From Bifidobacteriaceae bacterium (GTDB taxonomy: Bacteria; Actinomycetota; Actinomycetes; Actinomycetales; WQXJ01), in contig JAISSX010000078.1 of the NCBI GenBank assembly GCA_031272885.1, forward strand, positions 1-36,284: a DNA stretch of 36,284 nt. The letters are read 5' to 3'. Positions 4,384 through 33,470 of the stretch are shown in pieces. The notes below the pieces were generated by a model. The model had not been told where the DNA came from and ran no database searches. It was given only the letters and a program-made list of their open reading frames with translations. Position numbers and translations under genes: made by a program. How positions within the stretch are numbered: position 1 is the first letter of the stretch; each line of letters opens with the position of its first letter.

Positions 4384-4441
4384 TTGCGAAACCCTTGGGA
4401 CGTGCGCTACAGTCACTCATAGCTTGATTGAAACGTTTCAA
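4384..4441 (+). promoter_or_regulatory. Promoter and LacI operator for the rhamnose transport/catabolism operon
   Basis: TTGCGA (4384-4389) and TACAGT (4408-4413) are separated by 18 bases, a plausible sigma-70-type promoter. The perfect 14-bp palindrome TTGAAACGTTTCAA (4428-4441) lies just downstream of the expected start site, a classic repressor position, and 46 bases before the transporter ATG. CG-centred palindromes of this type are usual LacI-family sites. Confidence 0.75.
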
Positions 4442-4487
4442 AGTTGAACCGCATCACTCATACTTGAACCGAGCGAGGAGGCTCGAA

Positions 4488-5948
4488 ATGGCAGCCCCAA
4501 CTGAAACCACCAAGCGCAAGCTCTCCGGCTACAAGGCGACCATCGCCGTGGCCATGTCCAATTACATTGAGGCCGGCTCCATCATCGCCCTGGCCACGTC
4601 CCTGTCCATGTGGCAGGAGTACTTTGGCCTGTCGGACACCCTGGTGGGCTTGGCCGCCGCCATCTCGGCCAACGCCTTTGGGGCCGCCATCGGCGCCATG
4701 ATCGGCGGACCGCTGGGGGACAAGTACGGCCGCAAGTTCATCTACACCTACGACCTGATCCTGTACATGATCGGCACCCTCTTGGTGGTGTTCGCGGTGG
4801 CCCCCGCCATGTTCTTCACCGGCGTGGTGCTGACCGGCATCGCCGTGGGCGCCGGCGTCCCGGTGGCCTGGACCTACATCGCCGAAGAGGCCCCCACCGA
4901 AGGCCGCGCCCGGCACGTTGGCACCGCCCAACTGGCCTGGTCCCTGGGGCCGCTGTTCGGCTTCCTGCTGGCCACGGCACTGGTGCCGCTGGAACTGCTT
5001 GGGTCGCGCATCATCTTTGCCCACCTGTTCGTGATCGCGTTCATCACCTGGTGGGTCCGCCGTGGCCTGTCCGAATCGGACGTGTGGAAGGAATCCAACG
5101 CCAAACAGGTGGCGGCCGGGCAGAACAAGCGCGGCTTCAAGGAACTGATCTCGCTCAAGCAGAACGTCAAGAGCCTGGTCTTCCTGTTCCTGGTCTACGG
5201 CCTGTGGAACCTGTGGGCCAGCCAGGCCGGCATCTTCATGCCGCGCATCTACGAGTCTGCCGGGGTCGAATCCGCCACCCAGCAGAACCTGCTGCAGGTG
5301 CTGGTGTGGGGCCTGACCGTGCTGGTTACCTTCTTCGGTTTCATGCGCTACGGCGACCGAGTGTCGCGGCGCCTGCTCTACGGCATCGGTGCCGGCCTGG
5401 CCGTCGCCGCCTGCCTGGTGCTGGCCTTCGCGCCACCCACGCTGCCGGTGCTGATCGGCTTTGCCATCATTTGGGGTGTGGCCGCCGGCCTCGGCGCCCA
5501 GGCGTTCTACGCCCTGTGGACCGCCGAACTGTTCGCCACCTGCTACCGCGCCTCGGCCCAGGGCGTACTGTTCTTCGCCGTCCGCATCGCCTGCGGCGCC
5601 ATCTCCTACCTGATGCCCACTTTGCTGGCCAACCGCGGCGTCTCCTTCGTCGGCTCGCTGATGACCGGCTTCCTGCTGGTGGGCTTGGTGGTGGGCGTCA
5701 TCGGCGCTCCCAAGACCCAGGGCAAATCACTCAAGGAGATTGAAGCGGAACGCTACGGCGGTGACCCGCTGGACGCCATCGGGCACGGTGCGGCGCTGCC
5801 CGCCCCCGAAGCCGCACTCACCAGCGTCCTCGCGGCGGCCGGGCAGCCGGACCAGGGCATGCGGGTTCTAGAACCGATCTTCCACCTCGAAACCCAACTA
5901 CCGGCGGGCCGCGCAGAGGCGGCCGCCGCACCGAACACCACAGCCTAA
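4488..5948 (+). CDS. MFS transporter, probable L-rhamnose permease
   Basis: 486 residues from ATG 4488, with GAGGAGG 6-13 bases upstream; the open frame extends upstream across the operator but has no ribosome site there. About 12 hydrophobic helices are visible in two groups of six. The first intracellular loop carries the MFS motif A (GGPLGDKYGRKF), and PVAWTYIAEEAPTEGRAR follows TM4-5, as in the sugar porter and metabolite:H+ symporter subfamilies. A charged central loop (KESNAKQVAAGQNKRGFKEL) separates the halves, and the tail from about residue 425 is cytoplasmic and Ala/Pro rich. It is the first gene of the rhaI-rhaB-rhaD operon, directly behind the LacI operator, so rhamnose or a rhamnose-containing sugar is the likely substrate. 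Substrate is inferred from context only. Confidence 0.88.
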   Translation: MAAPTETTKRKLSGYKATIAVAMSNYIEAGSIIALATSLSMWQEYFGLSDTLVGLAAAISANAFGAAIGAMIGGPLGDKYGRKFIYTYDLILYMIGTLLVVFAVAPAMFFTGVVLTGIAVGAGVPVAWTYIAEEAPTEGRARHVGTAQLAWSLGPLFGFLLATALVPLELLGSRIIFAHLFVIAFITWWVRRGLSESDVWKESNAKQVAAGQNKRGFKELISLKQNVKSLVFLFLVYGLWNLWASQAGIFMPRIYESAGVESATQQNLLQVLVWGLTVLVTFFGFMRYGDRVSRRLLYGIGAGLAVAACLVLAFAPPTLPVLIGFAIIWGVAAGLGAQAFYALWTAELFATCYRASAQGVLFFAVRIACGAISYLMPTLLANRGVSFVGSLMTGFLLVGLVVGVIGAPKTQGKSLKEIEAERYGGDPLDAIGHGAALPAPEAALTSVLAAAGQPDQGMRVLEPIFHLETQLPAGRAEAAAAPNTTA

Positions 5949-5959
5949 GGAGAACCAAC

Positions 5960-7135
5960 ATGACTATCAACCAGAACACCGATCAGGTCTTGGCCGCGCT
6001 GGCCAAGCAGACCGTCGAACTGCCTAGCTGGGCCTTCGGCAACTCGGGTACGCGGTTCAAGGTGTTCGGCACGCCAGGCACGCCGCGCGACCCGTTCGAG
6101 AAGCTGTCCGATGCCGCCCAAGTGCACCGCTACACCGGCATCACGCCGCGTGTCTCCCTGCACATCCCGTGGGACCTGGTGGATGACTTCACCGAACTGG
6201 CTGCCCGCGCCGCCCGCGAGGGTGTCACCATCTCCGTCATCAACTCCAACCTGTTCCAGGACGATGACTATAAGTTCGGCTCGCTGACCCACGCCGATCC
6301 GGCTGTCCGGGCCAAGGCCGTGGCCCACCACGTGGCTTGCCTGGAGGTGATGCGGGCGGTCGGTTCCAAGGAACTGAAGATATGGCTGCCGGACGGCACC
6401 AACTACCCGGGGCAGGACTCGCTGCGCGCCCGCCAGGACCGCCTGGCGGAATCGCTTGCCCAGATCTACACCGCCACGCGCGGTGACGAGACCATCCTGC
6501 TGGAATACAAGTTCTTCGAGCCGGCCTTCTATCACACCGACGTGCCGGATTGGGGCACGTCGCTGCTGCACTGCCTGGCGCTGGGGCCGCGGGCCAAGGT
6601 CTGTCTGGACACCGGCCACCACGCCCCGGGTACCAACATCGAGTTCATCGTGATGCAGTTGCTGCGCCAGGGCCGCCTGGGCGCCTTCGACTTCAACTCC
6701 CGCTTCTACGCCGATGACGACCTGATGGTGGGTGCAGCCGATCCCTTCCAGTTGTTCCGCATCATGTTCGAAATCGTCTCCCAAGGCGCCCTCGATCCGT
6801 CCAGCGGGGTCAACTTCATGCTGGACCAGTGCCACAACATCGAGCCCAAGATCCAAGGCCAGATCCGTTCCGTCATGAACATCCAAGAAGCCACGGCCCG
6901 GGCCCTGCTGGTGGACCTGGCGGCGCTGGGGGAGGCGCAGCGGGAAGGGGACGTCCTGACCGCCAACGGCCTGCTGATGGAGGCCTACTCAACCGACGTG
7001 CGCCCGCTGCTGGCCGGGCTGCGCGAATCCATGGGCCTGGCGCCGGATCCGTTGGCGGCCTTCAAGGCCTCCGGCTACGAGGCCCGGGTTGCGGCCACGC
7101 GCGTGGGCGGCATCCAGGCCGGCTGGGGGGCCTGA
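5960..7135 (+). CDS. rhaI: L-rhamnose isomerase (RhaI type)
   Basis: 391 residues; the AAGGAG ribosome site overlaps the transporter stop region and ATG 5960 follows. It converts L-rhamnose to L-rhamnulose in the cytoplasm with divalent metals. The TIM-barrel metal-site segments are visible: E182 in LLEYKFFEP, D217 and H220/H221 in CLDTGHHAPG, the D252-D254 run after FNSRFYAD, and D289 in MLDQCHN. These features and the length fit the Pseudomonas/actinobacterial RhaI branch rather than the E. coli RhaA branch. It is followed by rhaB after four bases and rhaD further on, which completes the classical pathway. High confidence. Confidence 0.94.
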   Translation: MTINQNTDQVLAALAKQTVELPSWAFGNSGTRFKVFGTPGTPRDPFEKLSDAAQVHRYTGITPRVSLHIPWDLVDDFTELAARAAREGVTISVINSNLFQDDDYKFGSLTHADPAVRAKAVAHHVACLEVMRAVGSKELKIWLPDGTNYPGQDSLRARQDRLAESLAQIYTATRGDETILLEYKFFEPAFYHTDVPDWGTSLLHCLALGPRAKVCLDTGHHAPGTNIEFIVMQLLRQGRLGAFDFNSRFYADDDLMVGAADPFQLFRIMFEIVSQGALDPSSGVNFMLDQCHNIEPKIQGQIRSVMNIQEATARALLVDLAALGEAQREGDVLTANGLLMEAYSTDVRPLLAGLRESMGLAPDPLAAFKASGYEARVAATRVGGIQAGWGA

Positions 7136-7139
7136 AGCC

Positions 7140-8579
7140 ATGACTGCGCCTTCGGGGCCGCTGCGGGTGGCGGCCATCGACCTGGGGGCCTCCTCCGGCC
7201 GGGTCATGGTGGCTCGCCTGGCGGATGGTGCGGTTCGCTTGGAAGAGGTGCACCGCTTCGCCAACGGTCCGCATGAACAAGGCGACTACCTGGTGTGGGA
7301 CGTGGAGGGGCTGTTCGAGCAGGTTGTGGCCGGCTTGCGTCTGGCCGGGCCGGTGGCGTCGATCGGCATCGACTCGTGGGGGGTCGATTACGGCCTGCTC
7401 GATGCCGCCGGCGGCCTGCTTGGCCCGATGGTGGCCTACCGCGACGGGCGCACCGAGCGGTCCGTGCCGGCGGTGCTGGAAGGGCTTGGAGCGGGGGAGT
7501 TGTACGGCGTTACCGGCATCCAGCACCAGCCGTTCAACACCATCTTCCAGTTGAAGGCTGAGGCCATGGGCCTGGCACCCGGCGGCGCTCGGCTGCCCCA
7601 GGCGGCCCGGGCGCTGCTGCTGCCTGACCTGTTGGCCTACTGGCTGACCGGGCAGCAGGTGACTGAAACAACCAACGCCTCCACCACGGCGCTGCTGGAC
7701 GCCCGTACGGGCACCTGGTCCGCCTCGGCCCTGGCGGCCGCCGGGGTGGAGCGCGACCTGTTCGCCCCGCTGGTGAAGCCGGGACACGTCATCGGGCACC
7801 TGTTGCCGCAGATGGCAGAGGCGACCGGCCTGCCGGAAGCCACTCCCGTGGTGGCCGTAGGCAGCCACGACACCGCCAGCGCCGTGGCCGCGGTGCCCAG
7901 CCTGGGCGGTGGCGGGGTCTACGTGTCCTGTGGCACCTGGTCGCTGGCCGGTGTCGAACTGGCCGCGCCGGTGCTGACCGAGGCGGCCCGTGCGGCCAAC
8001 TTCACCAACGAACGCGGCGTGGGTGGCACCATCCGCTTCCTGCGCAACGTCATGGGGCTGTGGCTGTTGAGCGAGTCCCAGCGCCAGTGGCGTGAGGAGG
8101 GCCGTGACGTGGCTCTTGGTCCGCTGCTGGCGGCCGCCGCGGCCGAGCCCGCCGGCCTGGCCCTGGTGGATGCCGACGCCGCCGAGTTCCTGGCGCCCGG
8201 CAACATGCCCGCCCGCCTGGCCGCCGCCGTGGCTCGGGCCGGGGGACGGGCGCCGCAGACGCCGGCCCAGGTGGCCCGGCTGGTGATCGATTCGCTGGCG
8301 GCCTCGTACGCCAAGGCGGCGGCCGATGCCGAACGCCTGACCGGCCGGCCCCAGCCCGCCCTACACCTGGTGGGCGGTGGCTCTCAAGGCGAACTGCTGT
8401 GCCAGGCGACGGCCGACGCCGCTGGGCGGCCGGTGTTGGCCGGGCCGGCCGAGGCCTCAGCCCTGGGGAATGCCCTGGTACAGGCCCAGACATTGGGCGC
8501 CGTCGGCCCTGGGCTGGATGAGCTGCGCGCCGTAGTCGCGGCCTCGTTCCCCGTCAAGACCTACCTACCGAACTGCTGA
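7140..8579 (+). CDS. rhaB: Rhamnulokinase
   Basis: 479 residues, FGGY carbohydrate kinase family. It phosphorylates L-rhamnulose at O1 using ATP. ATG 7140 is four bases after the rhaI stop. The N-terminal actin-like fold has AAIDLGASSGRVMVARL (phosphate 1), IGIDSWGVDYGLLD and YRDGRTE. The central part has GSHDTASAVAAVP and YVSCGTWSLAGVEL. The C-terminal part has LRNVMGLWLLSESQRQW and the adenosine motif HLVGGGSQGELLCQATAD followed by PVLAGPAEASALGN. The aspartate of GSHDTASA corresponds to the family's catalytic base. GSHDTASA and CGTWSL are characteristic of rhamnulokinases among FGGY enzymes, and the gene order supports this. High confidence. Confidence 0.95.
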   Translation: MTAPSGPLRVAAIDLGASSGRVMVARLADGAVRLEEVHRFANGPHEQGDYLVWDVEGLFEQVVAGLRLAGPVASIGIDSWGVDYGLLDAAGGLLGPMVAYRDGRTERSVPAVLEGLGAGELYGVTGIQHQPFNTIFQLKAEAMGLAPGGARLPQAARALLLPDLLAYWLTGQQVTETTNASTTALLDARTGTWSASALAAAGVERDLFAPLVKPGHVIGHLLPQMAEATGLPEATPVVAVGSHDTASAVAAVPSLGGGGVYVSCGTWSLAGVELAAPVLTEAARAANFTNERGVGGTIRFLRNVMGLWLLSESQRQWREEGRDVALGPLLAAAAAEPAGLALVDADAAEFLAPGNMPARLAAAVARAGGRAPQTPAQVARLVIDSLAASYAKAAADAERLTGRPQPALHLVGGGSQGELLCQATADAAGRPVLAGPAEASALGNALVQAQTLGAVGPGLDELRAVVAASFPVKTYLPNC

Positions 8580-8593
8580 AAGAAGGGCATGAA

Positions 8594-9409
8594 ATGACCA
8601 CTCCAACGCTTACCGAATGCCTGACCCAGATGGGCGCCGCCGGCCGGCGGCTCGATGCGATCCACGCCTGTGAAGCCGGTGCCGGGAACATCTCCGTGGC
8701 CCTGCGCACGCCGCCGGACCTGGCGCAGACCTTCCCCCTATCGGAGCCCTACACCCTGCCCGCGCCCGCCCAGGCGCTGATCGGCTGGACGGTGCTAGTG
8801 ACCGGCTCCGGCTGCCGGCTGCGCGATGTGGCCGCGGCACCCACCGCCAACGTGGCGGCCGTGGAGATCGGCCCAGACGGGCTGACCGGCACACTGCACT
8901 ACGCGGCGGCCCGCGCCTACAGGACACCCACCAGCGAATTCAACTCGCACCTGGCTGTACACGCGGACCAGGTGGCTTCTGGGGGTGCGCCCCACGGGTA
9001 CCACACCGTCATCCACGCCCAGCCGCCCTACCTGGTGCTGCTGACACACGGGCCGGCGGCCAACTCCCGTGAGTTTTCGCGCGAACTGCTGCGCTGGGAG
9101 CCCGAGACGGTGGTGCAACTGCCCGAAGGTGTCAAGGTACTGGAGTTCATGGTGCCCGGTTCGGCCCGGCTGCAGGAGGCGTCGGTGGCCGGCCTGCGAA
9201 CACATCGGATTGTGCTGTGGTCGAAGCACGGCCTGATGGTGCGGTCCGCTGACGGCCCGCTGAAGGCCGTTGACCTGATCGAATACGCCGAGACGGGTGC
9301 CATGTACGCCCACCTGAACCAGGCCACGGGCCAGCCCAAACAGGGCCTGACCGATGAGGAACTGGCCCAGGTGATCGCCGCCTTCAACGTCCAGACCGAC
9401 CTGTTCTAG
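8594..9409 (+). CDS. rhaD: Rhamnulose-1-phosphate aldolase
   Basis: 271 residues, close to the 274 of E. coli RhaD; ATG 8594 follows AGAAGGG. This class II aldolase splits rhamnulose-1-phosphate into DHAP and L-lactaldehyde with a zinc ion. GAGNIS (31-33 region), LVTGSG, the catalytic-type glutamate E115 in PTSEF, H141 in VIHAQP, and H212 in WSKHGLM are visible. The second of the three usual zinc histidines (E. coli H143, in an HxH motif) is glutamine here: H141-A-Q143. Whether this is a lineage variant or alters metal binding is open. It is the last gene of the rhamnose operon. No lactaldehyde-processing gene follows. Confidence 0.92.
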   Translation: MTTPTLTECLTQMGAAGRRLDAIHACEAGAGNISVALRTPPDLAQTFPLSEPYTLPAPAQALIGWTVLVTGSGCRLRDVAAAPTANVAAVEIGPDGLTGTLHYAAARAYRTPTSEFNSHLAVHADQVASGGAPHGYHTVIHAQPPYLVLLTHGPAANSREFSRELLRWEPETVVQLPEGVKVLEFMVPGSARLQEASVAGLRTHRIVLWSKHGLMVRSADGPLKAVDLIEYAETGAMYAHLNQATGQPKQGLTDEELAQVIAAFNVQTDLF

Positions 9410-20865: not shown

Positions 20866-23202
20866 CTAGAGGGGTTCGGGGAAGATGAGGTATTCGTGCA
20901 GCACCTCGAGCGTCTGCACGTCGACCCGCCATTCGCGCTGCGGGTGGGCGTGGTTGCCCTTCACCAGGTAGACGTAAAGCGACGAATCGCGCCCATCCAC
21001 CAGGCCGTCCCCGGATTCGGCTGGGATGCCGGCCTCAATGTCCGCCACGCTGGGTAGGGAGGTCAGCGCGGGCAAAGTGGTGGACATGTCGTAGTACCAC
21101 AGGTAGTGGCACTCGTTTGAGACGGCGTCGCACACGTCCAGCGCCCAGTAGACCGCCACATCCCGGTCCAGGTCGCCCGGCGCATCCAGCACCAGTTGGC
21201 CGCCGTCGTTGACCGGCCGCAGGTCGGCCAGGTTCAGGCTGAAGTCGGTGCAGGCCGTGAACCAGCCCCACATCGGGCGGCCGGCAATGTCCAGCAGATC
21301 GGCGATGATCCGGTTGGCGGCATCGAACGTCTTGATCTCGAAGCAGGTGGGCTCGGTGTAGCTGAGCGGCACCGCCGGGTAGAAGGCGTTCTGTTTGTCC
21401 AGGAAGGACACGTTGTCGTAGTCCGCCCAGGCGGTGATGGCCGTGCCGTCATCCGCCACCTGCCGGGCCTCGATCCGATAGACGGATGGTCCGGTCCACC
21501 AGAAGGCGAACAGGGCCCCATCGCAGTGGCCGTCCGCACACTCGTAGCGGACCTCGAAACCCTGGGGCAGGGAGTCGGTGTAGGGTCCCCGGTCCGCCAG
21601 CGGGTCAACCGTGGGGCTGGGGCTTGGGCTTGGGCTGGGACTGGCCGATGGCGTCGGTTCGGCCGTAGCGGTTTCGCTGGCGGTGTCCGATGGCGTCGGT
21701 TCGGTAGCGGCGTCGGCGCCGCCTTGGCTGTCGGTCGCCAGGTCCTCAAGGGCCTGGCTGACCTGGTCGTCGATGTCAGCCTGGTCGGTTTGGCCGGCGG
21801 TAGCCTGGCCCGGCCCCGGGGCACCGAGGGTCTTGTAGAGCGTGACCGCGGCGGTGACCAGGCCAATCAGTACTGTCACCACGGTGGCGATCTTGACCAC
21901 GCGGCCGTGGCCCGATTCCTTGGGCGGTGGCGTGGCGGCCGGGGCGTAGGCCTGGTAGGCCTGCGGCGGGTAGGCCACCGGTGGGGCTTGATAGCCGGGG
22001 GGTGGTGGGGTCGGGGCCTGGTACCCGCCGGCCGCCTTGTAACCGGCGGCGGGGGAGTAGCCCGGCGCGGGCGCCTGCCCCGGTGCAGGCGTGGCTTGGG
22101 GCGCCAGCGGCGAAGCAGCCGCTGCCGGGGGCACCGCACCAGCCGCACCAGCCGCTCCGGCAGCCCCAGCCGCCCCGGCAGCCGGGACGCCCCAACCCTC
22201 GGCCGGCCGGATGCGGGTCAGCCCGCCGTCATCGGCCGCTTCCCTGGCCCCGGCCTTGGCGCCGTCCGGCCGGGTGGTGTCACCCTCACCCGGCGAGATC
22301 ACCATGTGGGTGGGCGTGTAACCCAACTCGGCCTGTAGGCGCCGCAAGGCGTTGCCGAAGCCGGCGGCGCTGGGGAACCTGGCCGCGGGATCCTTGGCCA
22401 TGGCTACCGCCAGAACCTGGTACACGGCATCGGGCAGGGCCACGCCGTGAGGGGAAACCAGCGGGGGCAACGGCTGGTCCAGGGCTCGGCGCGCCAAGGA
22501 GGTGGCGTCGTTTGGGCCTCCCGCCAGGGCGAATGGCGCGTGGCCGGTCAGCAGCGTGTAGATGGTGGCGCCCAGCGAATAGACGTCGCTTTGGGGTGTG
22601 GCAGCGGCGGGGGAGCGGAGTAGTTCGGGCGGGGCGTACGCCATCGACAAGCCGAGGGCGGCCGCCACGCCGGAGGGCGTGGCGTGGACCGCGATGCCGA
22701 AGTCGCTCAGGGCGTAGGCGCCGTACTGGGTGGTCAGGATGTTGGCCGGCTTGATGTCGCAGTGCAGCACGCCCATGCGGTGGGCGGTCTCCACCGCGCC
22801 GGCAATCTGGACGCCGATGGCGAGCACCTGCGGTAACGCGTTGGGCTGGTCGGCCAGCCCGGACTTGGCCAGCGACGGGCCGGGGCAATACTCCATCACC
22901 AGGTAGGGCCGGCCGTCCCCGGTCACCCCGGTGGTGTGGATGGTGACGATATTGGGGTGGGCGGACAGTTCCGCCATGGCGTTGGCCTCGCCCTCCCAGC
23001 GTTCGGCCGTGTCCGGGCCCAGCACCTCCGGCAGCAGCACCTTGACCGCCACTTTCCGGCGTGGCACCTCTTGCTGGTACAGGAAAACCTCGGCAAAGCC
23101 GCCGGTGCCCAGCAGGCGCAGGGGCCTGAAGCCGGCGATGAACGGCGGCAAAGGCTCTGGCGGCGAGGGCTCTGAAGGGCCCGGGACCGGGGGCGTTGTC
23201 AT
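20866..23202 (-). CDS. Transmembrane Ser/Thr protein kinase with a novel-looking extracellular domain
   Basis: 778 residues from ATG 23202; the frame extends upstream into the neighbouring isomerase gene and is not used there. The kinase domain covers about residues 23-292: glycine loop LGTGGFAEVF, K54 in VAVKV, E72, catalytic loop LHCDIKPANIL (H147-C148-D149), DFG at 167-169, APPE at 190-193, and SDVYSLGATIYTLLTG. The usual HRD arginine is cysteine, so activation-loop control may differ. A long Ala/Gly/Pro/Tyr-rich linker (residues 340-425) leads to a TM helix at about 436-456. Outside, a Thr/Ser/Pro stalk (490-535) precedes a 230-residue domain with six cysteines (YEC, GHC, PTC, TAC, DVC, NEC). 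I do not recognise this domain; PASTA repeats are absent. The start is 10 bases after the isomerase stop, so the two are likely cotranscribed. Confidence 0.9.
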   Translation of the reverse strand: MTTPPVPGPSEPSPPEPLPPFIAGFRPLRLLGTGGFAEVFLYQQEVPRRKVAVKVLLPEVLGPDTAERWEGEANAMAELSAHPNIVTIHTTGVTGDGRPYLVMEYCPGPSLAKSGLADQPNALPQVLAIGVQIAGAVETAHRMGVLHCDIKPANILTTQYGAYALSDFGIAVHATPSGVAAALGLSMAYAPPELLRSPAAATPQSDVYSLGATIYTLLTGHAPFALAGGPNDATSLARRALDQPLPPLVSPHGVALPDAVYQVLAVAMAKDPAARFPSAAGFGNALRRLQAELGYTPTHMVISPGEGDTTRPDGAKAGAREAADDGGLTRIRPAEGWGVPAAGAAGAAGAAGAAGAVPPAAAASPLAPQATPAPGQAPAPGYSPAAGYKAAGGYQAPTPPPPGYQAPPVAYPPQAYQAYAPAATPPPKESGHGRVVKIATVVTVLIGLVTAAVTLYKTLGAPGPGQATAGQTDQADIDDQVSQALEDLATDSQGGADAATEPTPSDTASETATAEPTPSASPSPSPSPSPTVDPLADRGPYTDSLPQGFEVRYECADGHCDGALFAFWWTGPSVYRIEARQVADDGTAITAWADYDNVSFLDKQNAFYPAVPLSYTEPTCFEIKTFDAANRIIADLLDIAGRPMWGWFTACTDFSLNLADLRPVNDGGQLVLDAPGDLDRDVAVYWALDVCDAVSNECHYLWYYDMSTTLPALTSLPSVADIEAGIPAESGDGLVDGRDSSLYVYLVKGNHAHPQREWRVDVQTLEVLHEYLIFPEPL

Positions 23203-23212
23203 GGCAAAGAGG

Positions 23213-24043
23213 TTAGCGGGCCAACATGTGGGAGCGCACGATGGCGGCCGCCGCGGCATAGTCTTCCGCGGTCTCCAGGTGCTCCAACATGCCCGGCATG
23301 TCCGGGTCAAGGCGCTCGATGGCGCCAATCAGGGCGGCGTAGTCGACCTCACCCAGGCCGATGCGCACCTCGTCGAACCGGACCGAATACGGCTCCGGGT
23401 TGAGCCGGAGGTCCTTCAGGTGGCAGGTGATGATCCGGTCGCCCAACAGGTCGAAGGTGTGCTCAATCCACTGGGTGATGCCGTAGTAGCGCCGCGGGCT
23501 GTTGATCGAATTGCACAGGTCCATGTGTGCCGCCACCTGCGGCCGGTCCACCGCCGCCAAGAAGCGCAGGTACTCCTCGGGTCCGTCCAGGAAGTAATAC
23601 GGCATCATCTCAAGCGACAGGGTGGTGTTGGCCGGCTGGACGGTGTCCACCAGGTGTTGGGTCAGGGCCACGGCCTCGTCGAAGAAGGCTTGGCTGTAGC
23701 CGGCGGCATCGGGGCCGTACCAGTTGTCGTGGCCCTTGGTGCCCAGCACGTTGACGCAGGTGCGGGCGCCCATCAGGTCCGCCAGCCGCAGGCGGTCGGT
23801 CATGAGCCCGATGGCGGCCTGCCGGGTGGCTGGGTCGTTGCTCAGCGGGTTGCACCAGGCGCCCACTTCGGCCAGCACGATGTCGCGGGCGGCCAGTTCA
23901 CGCGCCACGGCCTGGGCTTGGGCCGGGTCCTCCAGGGTGACCCAGTCAGGGGCGTAGGCCGCCCGGTAGCCCAGGGCCACGTGGGCCTCGGCGTAGGCCA
24001 CCGGATCGTGGCCTTGATACAGGACGGGTCCGCCAAGCCGCAT
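23213..24043 (-). CDS. Sugar phosphate isomerase/epimerase-like TIM-barrel protein
   Basis: 276 residues; ATG 24043 follows AAGGAACTCCTC. Xylose-isomerase-like barrel: GYRAAYAPDWVTLED, VLAEVGAWCNPLSND, a metal-ligand-type glutamate in LSLEMMPYYFLDGPEEYLRFL, DLCNSINSPRRYYG, H in ITCHLKDLRL, and GLGEVDYAALIGAIERLDPDMPGMLEHLE. Members bind a divalent metal and isomerise or epimerise sugars, sugar acids or inositol derivatives. The specific substrate is not visible. It differs clearly from the barrel protein at 1990-3228. The downstream kinase gene starts 10 bases after its stop. Confidence 0.86.
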   Translation of the reverse strand: MRLGGPVLYQGHDPVAYAEAHVALGYRAAYAPDWVTLEDPAQAQAVARELAARDIVLAEVGAWCNPLSNDPATRQAAIGLMTDRLRLADLMGARTCVNVLGTKGHDNWYGPDAAGYSQAFFDEAVALTQHLVDTVQPANTTLSLEMMPYYFLDGPEEYLRFLAAVDRPQVAAHMDLCNSINSPRRYYGITQWIEHTFDLLGDRIITCHLKDLRLNPEPYSVRFDEVRIGLGEVDYAALIGAIERLDPDMPGMLEHLETAEDYAAAAAIVRSHMLAR

Positions 24044-24916: not shown

Positions 24917-26209
24917 ATGGGACTGATTCGCGCTATCACCGGGGCCATCGGCGGCACGTTGGGTGACCAGTGGCTGGACGCCATCGGCATGCCAGAGGAT
25001 ATGGTCAAACAAGACACCCTGCTGGTGCGTGGTGTGCCCCTTCGGGATGACCCGCGCAGCCAGAACAAGAAGGGCACCGAGGACATCATCTCGAACGGCT
25101 CGCGCATCGTGGTGCCCACCGCCACCTGCATGTTGCTGGTCGATGGCGGCCGGGTGGTCGACTTCACCACCGAGCCGGGCTACTACACGGTCGATGATTC
25201 AGCCCAGCCGTCGATCTTCGTGGGCCAATGGGGCGATTCGCTGCGTCAAACCTGGGAGCGTTTCAAGTTTGCCGGCACCACGCCGCAGCAACAGCGGGCC
25301 CTGTTCATCCCGCAGCGCGAAATCCGCGATATCAAGTTCGGCACCAAGCAGCCCATCCAGTACTTCGACACCTTCTACAACGCCGAACTGTTCCTGCGCA
25401 CCTTCGGTTCATTTACCATCGTCATCTCCAACCCGCTGCTGTTCTTCGGCAACGTCTACAACAAGGTGGACACGCGGGTGAACTTCTCGGACATCCAAGA
25501 CCAGTTCGTGACCGAGTTCATGGGCAAGCTGACCACCGCCATTGCGCAGCTCAGCGCCCAGGGCGTGCGCATCTCCCAGGTGCAGGCCTACCAGGACCAA
25601 CTGTCGATGGCCATGAAGCAACTGCTCGATGCCGACTGGTTGCAGATCCGCGGCATCGAGATCCTTGAGGTTGGGGTTGAGTCGGTCAGCTACACCGACG
25701 AATCGCGCGAACTGATCAACCTGCGCAACAAGGGCGCCATGCTGTCCGATCCTTCGATCCAGCAGGGCTTCGTGGCCGGCACGGTGGCCGAGGCCCTGGA
25801 GGCGGCCGGTTCCAACCCCTCGGGTGGCGCCGCTTCGATGATGGGCATCGGCTTCGCCGGTGGCGCGGTCGGTTCGATGTTCGGCCAGCCGCTGGTGCCG
25901 GTGGCCGGGCAGCCCGGGGCTCCGGCCGCCGGGCAGCCGCCGTTGGCTCCGCCCCCCGGCACGCCGTTGGTGCCGGTGGCCCCGGCCGCCCCCGCGGCCG
26001 CGGCTGCGGCGGGTGCTGCGGCGGCCGCTGCTCCCGCGGCCGCTGCTCCGGCCGCTCCCCAGGCAGCCCCGCCGGCCCCGCCGGCGGCTGCGGCTCCCGC
26101 TGATCCGGCCGCAGCCGCGGCCGAGGGCCCCAAGTTCTGCCCCAACTGCGGCCAGCCCACCAACGGCGCCCGCTTCTGCGCCAACTGCGGCTACCAACTG
26201 CGCCCCTGA
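24917..26209 (+). CDS. SPFH-domain protein with C-terminal zinc ribbon
   Basis: 430 residues from ATG 24917, with AGGAG at 24904-24908. Residues about 25-260 read as a virion-core/YdjI-like SPFH (band-7) domain: DTLLVRGVPLRDDPRSQNKKG, GSRIVVPTATCMLLVDGGRV, a PGYYTVDDSAQPSIFVGQWG segment, EIRDIKFGTKQPIQYFDTFY, and QLLDADWLQIRGIEILEVGVESV. A small Gly/Met patch follows, then about 90 residues of Ala/Pro-rich linker. The end carries a treble-clef-like zinc ribbon with CPNCG and CANCG pairs. There is no TM helix. It is the first of three tandem same-strand genes, 18 bases before the next, which also has zinc ribbons. SPFH proteins scaffold membrane complexes; the specific role here is unknown. 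Confidence 0.88.
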   Translation: MGLIRAITGAIGGTLGDQWLDAIGMPEDMVKQDTLLVRGVPLRDDPRSQNKKGTEDIISNGSRIVVPTATCMLLVDGGRVVDFTTEPGYYTVDDSAQPSIFVGQWGDSLRQTWERFKFAGTTPQQQRALFIPQREIRDIKFGTKQPIQYFDTFYNAELFLRTFGSFTIVISNPLLFFGNVYNKVDTRVNFSDIQDQFVTEFMGKLTTAIAQLSAQGVRISQVQAYQDQLSMAMKQLLDADWLQIRGIEILEVGVESVSYTDESRELINLRNKGAMLSDPSIQQGFVAGTVAEALEAAGSNPSGGAASMMGIGFAGGAVGSMFGQPLVPVAGQPGAPAAGQPPLAPPPGTPLVPVAPAAPAAAAAAGAAAAAAPAAAAPAAPQAAPPAPPAAAAPADPAAAAAEGPKFCPNCGQPTNGARFCANCGYQLRP

Positions 26210-26227
26210 CCGGGGGTAGGCGCCGAA

Positions 26228-27955
26228 GTGTCGCAAACCACCGATTCCAAGTGCCCCAACTGCGGCAATGTGCTGGTGTGGGACCCGGCCCTGGGCCGGC
26301 TACGCTGCATCGGCTGCGGTTCGCTGTTCGACGTTCCGCCGCCGCCGGAGCCGGAACCGGCCCCGGAGCCTGAACCTGAACCTGAAGCTGAGGTAGAGGC
26401 AGAACCGAGCACAAAGCCCACCGCCGGGCACCGCATGAGTGTGGCCACGTTCACGCGCATGGCGTTGGACCGAGTCGAGGAAGTCTCCGGCCAAGAGGCC
26501 GGCTCACGTGCCACCAATGCGGTGTTCCAGGGCTATACGGCCGCCATCATGGCGGCGATCACCACCGGCGATGCAGCCGCGGCCGGGGCATCCGAGGCCT
26601 ATCAGAAGAAGCTGATGGAGGTGGTGCAAGCGGCCGGCCCAGGGTCGCTGGAAGGCAGGACCACTTCGGACGCCGATGCCGTCATTCTGCTCGCCTTGGC
26701 GGACAAGGCCCTGGACACGACCGCCCGGGTGGCCCACCCGCAAGCGATCCAGGCGGCCGTGGTGGCGCTGCAGCAGCACCTCGATGCCGTCAAGGCCCAA
26801 ATGGCCGCCCATGCCCCAACGGCGGCGCCCGAGCCGGGTGGGCCGGCCGCGCCATCGCCCACCGCCGGTTACAGCGCCGCCCGTAAGGTGTTCGAACGCC
26901 AAATCGAGGCGATGCAAGAGATCGCCAACACCCGGGCGGCCAACGGCTGGGCGCCAATTTCCGACGCGGACGAGCTGGCCTCCCTCCAGGCTTCGGCCCA
27001 GGCGGCGGCCGAAGCGGCGGCGCAGGCAGCCCAGCCCGAGCCGGTCAGCGAAGCCAACGCGGCGGCAGCCGCCAACGCCAGCGGCCTGGACGCCGTCGAA
27101 TGCACCTCTTGCGGCGCCCAGATCCTGGTCAGCGGCGGCACCTTGGCCTCCACGATCTGCATGTACTGCCACAGCCCCGTGGTATTGAAGGGCCAGTTGG
27201 CGGCGGCCTTGGCGCCCGATGCCGTGGTGCCGTTCGCCATCAACGCGGAAAAGGCGCGGGACCTGTTCCACGCCTGGATCTCGCGGAAGCGCTACCTCAA
27301 GACCGGCTTCTATTCGCGGGCCCGGATCGACAAGCTGGACGGCGTCTACTTCCCGTACTTCGCGGTGGACGCGGACATGCAGTGTGTGGCGGGCGGCATC
27401 GGCCACTGGACCACCGGCACCGGCAAGGACCGCCAAGACCACTACCAGGAGTTTGGCCGCAGCGGGCGCATTGTGGTGGTTGACCTGCCGCAAGAAGCCC
27501 TGCGGGCTAACCGGGCCAACAAGATGATCAACCGGCTGTTGCCGTGGGACCTGAGCCAAGAACAGCCGTTTCAGCCGCAGTACCTGGCCGGTTTCCAAAC
27601 CGAGCGGCGTGACCTGGACTTCCAGGACGTGGCGCCCGAGGTGGCGGCCCACCTTGACCTGGCGGCCAAACGGCTGATCGCCAACGACGTGTTCGCCGAC
27701 GTCCGTCAGTACGAGGACCTGAGCGTCTACGGTTCCACCACCATAACCGAATGGAAGCACCGCTACACGCTGCTGCCGGCCTGGGTGCTGTTCTACACCG
27801 CCCCGGGTGGTGAGATGTACTACTTCGGCGTCAACGGCCAAACCGGCGAGACGGCCGGCCGCCTGCCCGTCAACACGCGCAAGCTGGCCCTGCACGCCAC
27901 CCTCATGTCCATCGCGGGCGCTTTCGTGTCCATACTCGGATTCATCTTCCTGTGA
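26228..27955 (+). CDS. Zinc-ribbon membrane protein (TFIIB-type zinc ribbon-containing), partner of the SPFH protein
   Basis: 575 residues from GTG 26228, 18 bases after the SPFH stop. Zinc ribbon 1 uses C9/C12 and C27/C30 (KCPNCGNVLVW...CIGCGSLFD). An acidic Pro/Glu stretch follows (37-60), then an Ala-rich helical region (70-290). Zinc ribbon 2 uses C292/C295 and C311/C314. The conserved-looking core VVPFAINAEKARDLFHAWISRK...FYSRARIDKLDGVYFPYFAVDAD and a long soluble domain follow. A single C-terminal TM helix (MSIAGAFVSILGFIFL) ends the protein, so most of it would face the cytoplasm as a tail-anchored protein. Similar proteins are sometimes mislabelled as helicases; no helicase motif is present. 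Its stop overlaps a GTG of the next frame, indicating an operon. Confidence 0.85.
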   Translation: MSQTTDSKCPNCGNVLVWDPALGRLRCIGCGSLFDVPPPPEPEPAPEPEPEPEAEVEAEPSTKPTAGHRMSVATFTRMALDRVEEVSGQEAGSRATNAVFQGYTAAIMAAITTGDAAAAGASEAYQKKLMEVVQAAGPGSLEGRTTSDADAVILLALADKALDTTARVAHPQAIQAAVVALQQHLDAVKAQMAAHAPTAAPEPGGPAAPSPTAGYSAARKVFERQIEAMQEIANTRAANGWAPISDADELASLQASAQAAAEAAAQAAQPEPVSEANAAAAANASGLDAVECTSCGAQILVSGGTLASTICMYCHSPVVLKGQLAAALAPDAVVPFAINAEKARDLFHAWISRKRYLKTGFYSRARIDKLDGVYFPYFAVDADMQCVAGGIGHWTTGTGKDRQDHYQEFGRSGRIVVVDLPQEALRANRANKMINRLLPWDLSQEQPFQPQYLAGFQTERRDLDFQDVAPEVAAHLDLAAKRLIANDVFADVRQYEDLSVYGSTTITEWKHRYTLLPAWVLFYTAPGGEMYYFGVNGQTGETAGRLPVNTRKLALHATLMSIAGAFVSILGFIFL

Positions 27956-27966
27956 GGCGGCCACCG

Positions 27967-28407
27967 ATGAAACTGATCTTGAAGCGACTGTTGGCCCTGG
28001 TGGGCGCCATCGGCGGCGGGCTGCTGCTGACCCTGGTGCTGGCGGCGGCGCCGGCCCAGGCCGCCAGTTGGGACGATGACGACTACAGTTCTAGTTCCGG
28101 TTCTCGGGACATCGGCATGTACCTGGGGATGATCGGTGTGGCCGGCATCGCCTCTGGGCCGATCTTCTACGCCACGGTGACGAAGCGCTACTCGCTGACG
28201 GACGATGACGACCCAAAGGACCAGGCCATCCGCTCCAAGGTGAGCCTGCAGCGGTCCAGCAAGCTGGGCCGGCCAAACTCCGACACCCTGGTTGTGACCT
28301 ACCGCAAGCGGAAGGGCCAGGCCGTCCTGGTGGCGACCAAGCGCGGCGGCTCCGGCAGGCCCCAATCGACGGGTTTTGCCGCCATTGGGGATCTGTTTAA
28401 GGACTAG
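27967..28407 (+). CDS. Small membrane/exported protein of the SPFH cassette
   Basis: 146 residues from ATG 27967, with GAGG nine bases upstream; a GTG at 27952 overlapping the previous stop is the alternative start. A signal-peptide-like helix (residues 5-32, ending APAQAAS) is followed by an acidic/serine patch (WDDDDYSSSSGS), a second hydrophobic helix (about 48-68, GMYLGMIGVAGIASGPIFYA), and a basic C-terminal tail (KRKGQAVLVATKRGGS). No family recognised. Position and spacing make it the third member of the SPFH / zinc-ribbon operon. Likely membrane-embedded with a basic cytoplasmic tail. Confidence 0.75.
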   Translation: MKLILKRLLALVGAIGGGLLLTLVLAAAPAQAASWDDDDYSSSSGSRDIGMYLGMIGVAGIASGPIFYATVTKRYSLTDDDDPKDQAIRSKVSLQRSSKLGRPNSDTLVVTYRKRKGQAVLVATKRGGSGRPQSTGFAAIGDLFKD

Positions 28408-31868: not shown

Positions 31869-33470
31869 TTGTCCCGTCGAAACGGTGCGTTTGTCCTGGC
31901 CGGAGCCTTGGCGCTGGCTACCGCTGTACTTCTTCCCACTGCCGCCCAGGCTTATGATGACGTGTCGAGCCAAGGCACGCTGACCGGCCCCACGGCCCTG
32001 GTCGCTACGCCCACGGCGAACTGGCCGCGGCCCCACACCGCCCTGCACGTGCAGGTCAACCTGGCTACCGGGCAGATCCAGATCGTGCCGGGCGCAGTCA
32101 AGCTGATCACCGTGCCCAAGGTGGCTGGTGACGGCCTGGGCACCTTGTCGCTGACGGTGGACGCCGGCAGCGCCGTGACCGACCGCAGTGGCGGCGTGCC
32201 CGTCACCGTCACCTTGACGCAGCAAGACCTGGAGGCCTTGGCGGACGGCTTGCCGATGGCCGGTTCGGTCACCTCGGGGCCGAACACCGGGGCGGTGTTC
32301 GATGGCGTGTTGGCGGCCTCGCCCACCGTCACCAGTGCGCCCGACCCGGCCGTCACCACCGACGCCGGCACGGCGCTGTCAGGTGCCTGGACCGGCCTGG
32401 CCGGCACCGCCACGGCGCTGGGCGCGCAGAGCCTGGGCCAGGCGGTCGAGGACACCTTCACCACGCTGGCCGGGTCCGGTACAGCGCTGGCCGTGCCCTA
32501 CGCCTATTCGTTCTCGTATAGCTACGGCACCTCTTTCCATTCGGACACTGCGGTCACCATCACCCCGGCTCAGATCGCGGCCGATGCTGGCCTCAACCCC
32601 GCCACCTTGACGGGTGCCATCGACCAGGCCAAGGCGAAGGACGCCATCGCCGGCCTGCTGGCCAGCCCCACGCCGGAAACCACGCTTGCCACCTGGGCTG
32701 ACACCTACTGGCCGTCGCTGAAGGCCAACCTGATCACAGCCTTGACCGTGCCCTACACGGCCAGTAACGGTGACGCCGGTGACTTAGTGCCAGACGGGAC
32801 AGCGTTGTCACAGCGCATCGGGCTGTTGTTGAAGGACAAACTGGCCGCCGCCTGGGGCGACCTGGTGACCGACAATCTGGGTGGCACGTTGGCCGGCTCG
32901 CTGCAGTTGCAGGGCGGCACGCTGACACACCTGGTGCCGCTGGATGCGACCGAGGTTGACCTGGATGATTCCTACTGGAACAACCTGAAGGACCACGCCT
33001 TTGTGTTGGGGGTTGGGCACGATTACCAGATTCCGCTGCCCACCGCCAAGCGCAACCCCGCCACCCCGATCTACCGCTTCCAGTCCGATGACCCGGCTAT
33101 CGCCTCGGTGGACGGCAACGGCCTGATCCACGGCTACGGGGTGGGTACCACGCGGGTGGTGGTGGAGGTGACCTACAACTGTGTGGTGGACGGCTCGTTC
33201 GAAGTCACGCGTGAGGTGGTTTACACCGTCACGGTGACCGAGGACCTGGGCGTGTTCAGTTCGCAGAGCGCCTCGCAGAAAGCCTCGCTGCCGCCGCAGG
33301 TGTTGCGGCCGTCGGGTGAGGTGGATGCGCCGAGCGCTTCGGCCTCGGCCGGGGCGTTGTTGGAGGTGACGGGTCCAGTCCGGAGCGGGCTCCTGGGCGC
33401 CCTGGCCGCGGCCATGGTGGTGAGCGGCGCCTTGCTGCGGCGCACCGCGACCCGGCGGGCCGAACTGTAA
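31869..33470 (+). CDS. Secreted, membrane-anchored surface protein with a BIG2-like domain
   Basis: 533 residues; start TTG 31869, preceded by GAAGGAGAG. A Sec signal peptide covers residues 1-28 (basic SRRN, hydrophobic ALALATAVLLP, cleavage near AQA-YD). The mature part is Thr/Ala/Asp rich. IYRFQSDDPAIASVDGNGLIHGYGVGTTRVVVEVTY (about 395-430) has the BIG2/Ig-like pattern. The C-terminus has a hydrophobic helix (LLGALAAAMVVSGALLRR) and the basic tail RRTATRRAEL but no LPxTG motif. It is therefore probably held by a TM anchor rather than sortase. Repeated Gly/Ser/Tyr (PYAYSFSYSYGTSF) lies near residue 215. Function unknown; adhesion or envelope structure is possible. Confidence 0.82.
   Translation: MSRRNGAFVLAGALALATAVLLPTAAQAYDDVSSQGTLTGPTALVATPTANWPRPHTALHVQVNLATGQIQIVPGAVKLITVPKVAGDGLGTLSLTVDAGSAVTDRSGGVPVTVTLTQQDLEALADGLPMAGSVTSGPNTGAVFDGVLAASPTVTSAPDPAVTTDAGTALSGAWTGLAGTATALGAQSLGQAVEDTFTTLAGSGTALAVPYAYSFSYSYGTSFHSDTAVTITPAQIAADAGLNPATLTGAIDQAKAKDAIAGLLASPTPETTLATWADTYWPSLKANLITALTVPYTASNGDAGDLVPDGTALSQRIGLLLKDKLAAAWGDLVTDNLGGTLAGSLQLQGGTLTHLVPLDATEVDLDDSYWNNLKDHAFVLGVGHDYQIPLPTAKRNPATPIYRFQSDDPAIASVDGNGLIHGYGVGTTRVVVEVTYNCVVDGSFEVTREVVYTVTVTEDLGVFSSQSASQKASLPPQVLRPSGEVDAPSASASAGALLEVTGPVRSGLLGALAAAMVVSGALLRRTATRRAEL

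Follow-up and report, generated by a model that had tools for sequence, protein, structure and literature searches.

The three adjacent genes A, B and C probably encode a membrane module of the YdjI-YdjG-YdjH type, in a form that is unlinked from PspA and in which YdjH is cut to a membrane anchor and tail. By analogy with Bacillus subtilis, we infer that this cassette is most likely a membrane-anchored SPFH assembly of the envelope-stress and membrane-fluidity class. The trio itself is already known as a kind, and what we describe is a variant of it, with a TPM-less YdjH in a PspA-lacking genome; in the part of the literature covered by our search, which was not exhaustive, we found no description of either trait for this module.

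Locus and known systems

The cassette lies in a window of 36,284 nucleotides (the whole stretch of DNA analysed) from a Bifidobacteriaceae bacterium. Its genes are open reading frames on the same strand, separated by 18 bp (A-B) and 11 bp (B-C; Table 1), in keeping with a sequence-only reading of the locus that had pointed to three tightly spaced genes. A promoter and terminator scan of the cassette gave no convincing same-strand site. The neighbours encode an NpdG-type F420 reductase (5') and a succinate CoA transferase (3'), and both fall outside the conserved block. Elsewhere in the window are a Ser/Thr kinase near the cassette (20866-23328, minus strand), which has a membrane segment, a region rich in Pro and Ala and an outer C-terminal part, and whose top PADLOC matches are generic kinase models; a 533-residue protein with a signal-peptide-like start (31869-33470) that matched neither Pfam nor NCBIfam at the thresholds applied; and genes for rhamnose utilisation (4428-9409: MFS transporter, L-rhamnose isomerase, rhamnulokinase and rhamnulose-phosphate aldolase).

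Table 1 Features of the cassette in the window.
Feature	Position	Strand	Length	Description
Gene A	24917..26209	+	430 aa	SPFH (Band_7_1), YdjI/YdjL type; long Ala/Pro linker; C-terminal four-Cys zinc ribbon
Gene B	26228..27955	+	575 aa	YdjG type; two zinc ribbons; C-terminal membrane anchor
Insert in B	26345..27080	+		Low-complexity and helical, between the two zinc ribbons
Gene C	27967..28407 (ATG start)	+	146 aa	YdjH slot, without TPM domain

The sequence-only reading had assigned the trio no established function, a statement that does not hold for trios of this kind: the pspA-ydjGHI operon has been characterised, and publications describe how pspA is coupled with band-7 plus ribbon, double-ribbon and TPM proteins (PMC11237479; PMC9239133). 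In B. subtilis, deletion of ydjG or ydjH is reported to abolish the membrane foci of YdjI and PspA, two-hybrid data indicate that YdjH binds YdjI and PspA and that YdjG binds YdjH, and membrane fluidity is lower when YdjI is lost (PMC8581546). Two further proposals of that reading, a membrane-tethered complex around the SPFH protein and a possible role in membrane stress, fit this published work on YdjGHI (PMC8581546).

The SPFH and YdjG-type proteins

Protein A carries a Band_7_1/SPFH domain (PF13421, E 2.7e-14, above the curated cut-off) and a Zn_ribbon_3 match (E 2.2e-6), the latter corresponding to a C-terminal ribbon with CxxC motifs at residues 408 and 421. The SPFH protein with a terminal zinc ribbon and long Ala/Pro linker that had been read from the sequence was thus borne out, the linker spanning 102 residues, 77% of which are Ala, Pro or Gly. 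A hydrophobicity scan found no transmembrane segment in A (none over 1.6). The combination of a Band_7_1 domain, no membrane segment of its own and a C-terminal zinc ribbon is that of YdjI/YdjL-type proteins and is shared with the SPFH protein of the B. subtilis pspA-ydjGHI system. The flotillins FloA and FloT likewise have an SPFH domain and form membrane-associated assemblies, but they possess their own membrane anchor, which A lacks.

Among named records, those nearest to A come from MAGs that carry the label Bifidobacteriaceae (72-77% SPFH identity) and whose isolate names suggest that the samples were of termite-gut origin. Outside its own family, A is closest to SPFH proteins of Bacillota, spirochaetes and Actinomyces (46-55% identity), and it is only ~30% identical to those of other families in its own order. 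Its SPFH domain has no sequence relative in the PDB. The window's genome (G000) also encodes two further Band_7 proteins elsewhere (C27:785-1294 and C35:2564-3112).

Protein B has the features that define YdjG, also in B. subtilis: two zinc ribbons (residues 9-30, with CxxC pairs at 9/27, and residues 292-314, with pairs at 292/311), a conserved cytoplasmic domain and a C-terminal membrane segment. The last is its single hydrophobic segment (residues 552-575), so B looks tail-anchored; the sequence-only reading had likewise described a tail-anchored protein with two zinc ribbons. Across a 25-sequence alignment, B aligned with YdjG proteins over its full length except for the insert, and its eight ribbon cysteines, an NG..G motif and several prolines were invariant. 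The insert (residues ~40-285, more than 200 residues) consists of a Glu/Pro-rich stretch followed by predicted helices of low to middling confidence; it is absent from B. subtilis YdjG and restricted to the window's genus, occurring in the alignment only in the window and L031. When full-length B was used as the query for a fold search, this helical insert dominated the outcome, and the search was set aside. The beta-rich, cytoplasmic domain between ribbon 2 and the anchor was modelled with a mean pLDDT of 85.5; Foldseek gave no match for this domain at E 0.001, and the best VIA score was Z 4.3. Its resemblance to YpmB was weak (Z 4.0) and merely consistent with the published YpeB relation.

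Zinc ribbons of B's kind are common modules that often bind proteins. The C-terminal module of the SPFH partner varies among zinc ribbon, SHOCT and GYF_2 while the YdjG partner stays constant (for example, L056:5134-6471 and L061:4716-5861), and these tail swaps point to protein contacts. Both observations speak against the ribbons of B binding DNA or RNA in a module that is mainly regulatory, a reading we consider improbable, even though the ribbons have a TFIIB-type likeness and a DNA/RNA-binding regulatory role has been proposed for those of YdjG (PMC9239133).

A probable YdjH without its outside domain

Protein C has a signal-peptide-like hydrophobic segment at residues 3-33, a second segment at about residues 49-67, and a tail of 76 residues with 16 Lys/Arg and 8 Asp/Glu, agreeing with the small exported or membrane protein with a basic tail suggested from sequence. 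It has no Pfam match, hence lacks the recognisable TPM domain of YdjH, and PF04536 (TPM) found no match anywhere in the genome. Profile comparison nonetheless places in C the membrane segment and cytoplasmic tail that follow TPM in YdjH. When the C family and YdjH were both trimmed to these parts, hhalign aligned them in order over 53 columns (P 1.3e-5, probability 80%), and the score was reached by none of 300 tail-column shuffles and none of 300 segment-wise shuffles. An initial hhalign comparison of full-length C with full-length YdjH was weak (P 0.027), and the trimmed comparison was used instead. The link of C to YdjH is a remote one, the window's C sits in the more diverged branch of its family, and the starts of some third-gene open reading frames are uncertain.

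The YdjH-tail profile was also compared with 7169 open reading frames, and C proteins made up 9 of the top 15 matches lacking TPM. In sister genomes (L039 and L040), a TPM-bearing YdjH stands in C's place with a tail that reads like both C and YdjH, and the L039 protein matches the C profile at E 0.0012. The tail profile match, the shuffles, the shared slot and these TPM-bearing proteins together support C as a YdjH without its outside domain. That C is instead an unrelated small membrane protein occupying the third place appears unlikely: its lack of a Pfam match and a direct YdjH link made by profile comparison at 80% probability are compatible with this explanation, but the shuffle controls, the reciprocity of the weak HMM matches, the same place and order, and the TPM-bearing intermediate in sister genomes all count against it. 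Two independent TPM losses are not claimed: the best tree requires two changes, but a topology with all TPM-less modules in a single clade is also compatible with the data (p-AU 0.206).

At three loci (L033:6343-7809, L037:6934-8355 and L038:2473-3786), a single fused protein combines B and C, and no SPFH gene was found beside it. These fusions suggest that B and C touch, and thereby offer indirect support for interaction among the components.

Conservation of gene order

Contiguous A-B-C genes were found at 18 further loci in six families (f1, f9, f10, f12, f14 and f45), and B-C pairs reaching a contig end at three more. With the 18 loci spread over six families and set in different flanks, the linkage is not due to chance; a lack of co-occurrence in other genomes, which the sequence-only reading had named as its refutation, is thus not what we find. 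The same reading's second suggestion, phage defence, found no support. We regard a phage-defence cassette as highly improbable: it draws on that suggestion and the name 'phage shock' only, A, B and C had no PADLOC match at E 0.1 in a search for defence functions confined to this window, and the module is conserved in varied genomic contexts.

Beyond these relatives, SPFH, YdjG and TPM-bearing YdjH genes lie side by side in named Bacillota, spirochaetes, Actinomyces and Mobiluncus, and an Enterococcus plasmid carries the same trio annotated as SPFH, hypothetical and TPM. Among the 80 loci found by a genome scan, the TPM protein (YdjH) formed a further cluster in 58, mostly directly after YdjG. 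The published order pspA-ydjG-ydjH-ydjI was recovered in nine Bacilli loci, and the order SPFH-YdjG-YdjH with no adjacent pspA in Clostridia, lactic acid bacteria, spirochaetes and the window's relatives. Together with one additional row, the YdjG proteins of the nine pspA loci make up a separate clade with full support, and B falls outside it, among TPM-linked YdjG proteins. Separate YdjG-TPM pairs lacking SPFH (L041-L047) occur in a sister genus within the same family, and some genomes hold several module types.

The window thus shares with B. subtilis pspA-ydjGHI the joint occurrence of SPFH, YdjG and YdjH-slot proteins, but differs in having no pspA in the operon or detected in the genome, and in having the SPFH gene first, not last. 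It also resembles the SPFH-YdjG-YdjH(TPM) cassettes found in Clostridia, Lactococcus, Enterococcus, Actinomyces and Treponema, which mostly share its order, have no adjacent pspA, encode SPFH proteins 46-55% identical to A and contribute many B proteins to the window's tree branch. In those cassettes the product of the third gene has a complete TPM domain and is rich in Ser and Gly at its end, whereas C has neither.

Distribution of PspA

No PF04012 (PspA) match was found in the window's genome, and none of 17 sampled genomes of its family reached the curated cut-off for PF04012 (G011 had one sub-threshold match). Since no PspA was found in the genome or the family, the module cannot work here by recruiting PspA as it does in Bacillus. 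We claim that PspA is not needed by the module in this setting; mutual exclusion of the two is not part of that claim. Among the window's relatives, PspA occurred in 3 of 36 B-positive versus 60 of 83 B-negative genomes, and it was present in 6 of the 50 named genomes with the SPFH proteins most similar to A. A strict exclusion between module and PspA was rejected as a rule: strong among the relatives, it disappeared in a class-wide sample (35/41 B-positive versus 270/354 B-negative genomes, Fisher p 0.24) and is lineage-bound.

These counts also bear on whether the cassette is an ordinary PspA-dependent system whose pspA is missing from the draft or too diverged to detect. The genome is a draft in 81 contigs and 95% complete, from which a single gene could be absent, and the class-wide co-occurrence of PspA with B homologues is what such a system would predict. 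We nevertheless judge this explanation very unlikely, given that none of the 17 family genomes reached the cut-off, that the same search recovered PspA in most B-negative relatives and that PspA is scarce in the named genomes whose SPFH proteins are closest to A.

Proposed mechanism and implications

Homology to B. subtilis YdjI, YdjG and YdjH suggests that A acts as the scaffold and B and C as its membrane receptors. As is typical of the SPFH family, A, which has no membrane segment, may form cytoplasmic oligomers. B would be held by its C-terminal helix, its ribbons and beta domain lying on the cytoplasmic side. C would span the membrane with its basic tail inside; by the B. subtilis deletions, both B and C would recruit A. 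The tail of C, whose homology to YdjH is supported, is the retained part and so probably the docking part, and loss of TPM would take away the extracytoplasmic module. Judging from the effect of YdjI on fluidity, the assembly may organise or fluidise the membrane during envelope stress without PspA. The absent parts would then be a remodelling effector (PspA) and an outside module (TPM), leaving a core that may organise the membrane alone.

More tentatively, and with considerable doubt, the TPM-less YdjGHI module might replace PspA as envelope-stress machinery in the window's family and several sister families, as a minimal two-anchor SPFH scaffold with no ESCRT-III-type protein.

Current understanding of the YdjI complex in B. 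subtilis comes by way of PspA, and a widespread form lacking PspA makes the role of the core SPFH-YdjG-YdjH proteins testable alone. The form that has shed TPM would further allow the anchor part of YdjH to be told apart from the sensor part, and genes that at present carry only a hypothetical annotation gain likely functional names from the homologies.
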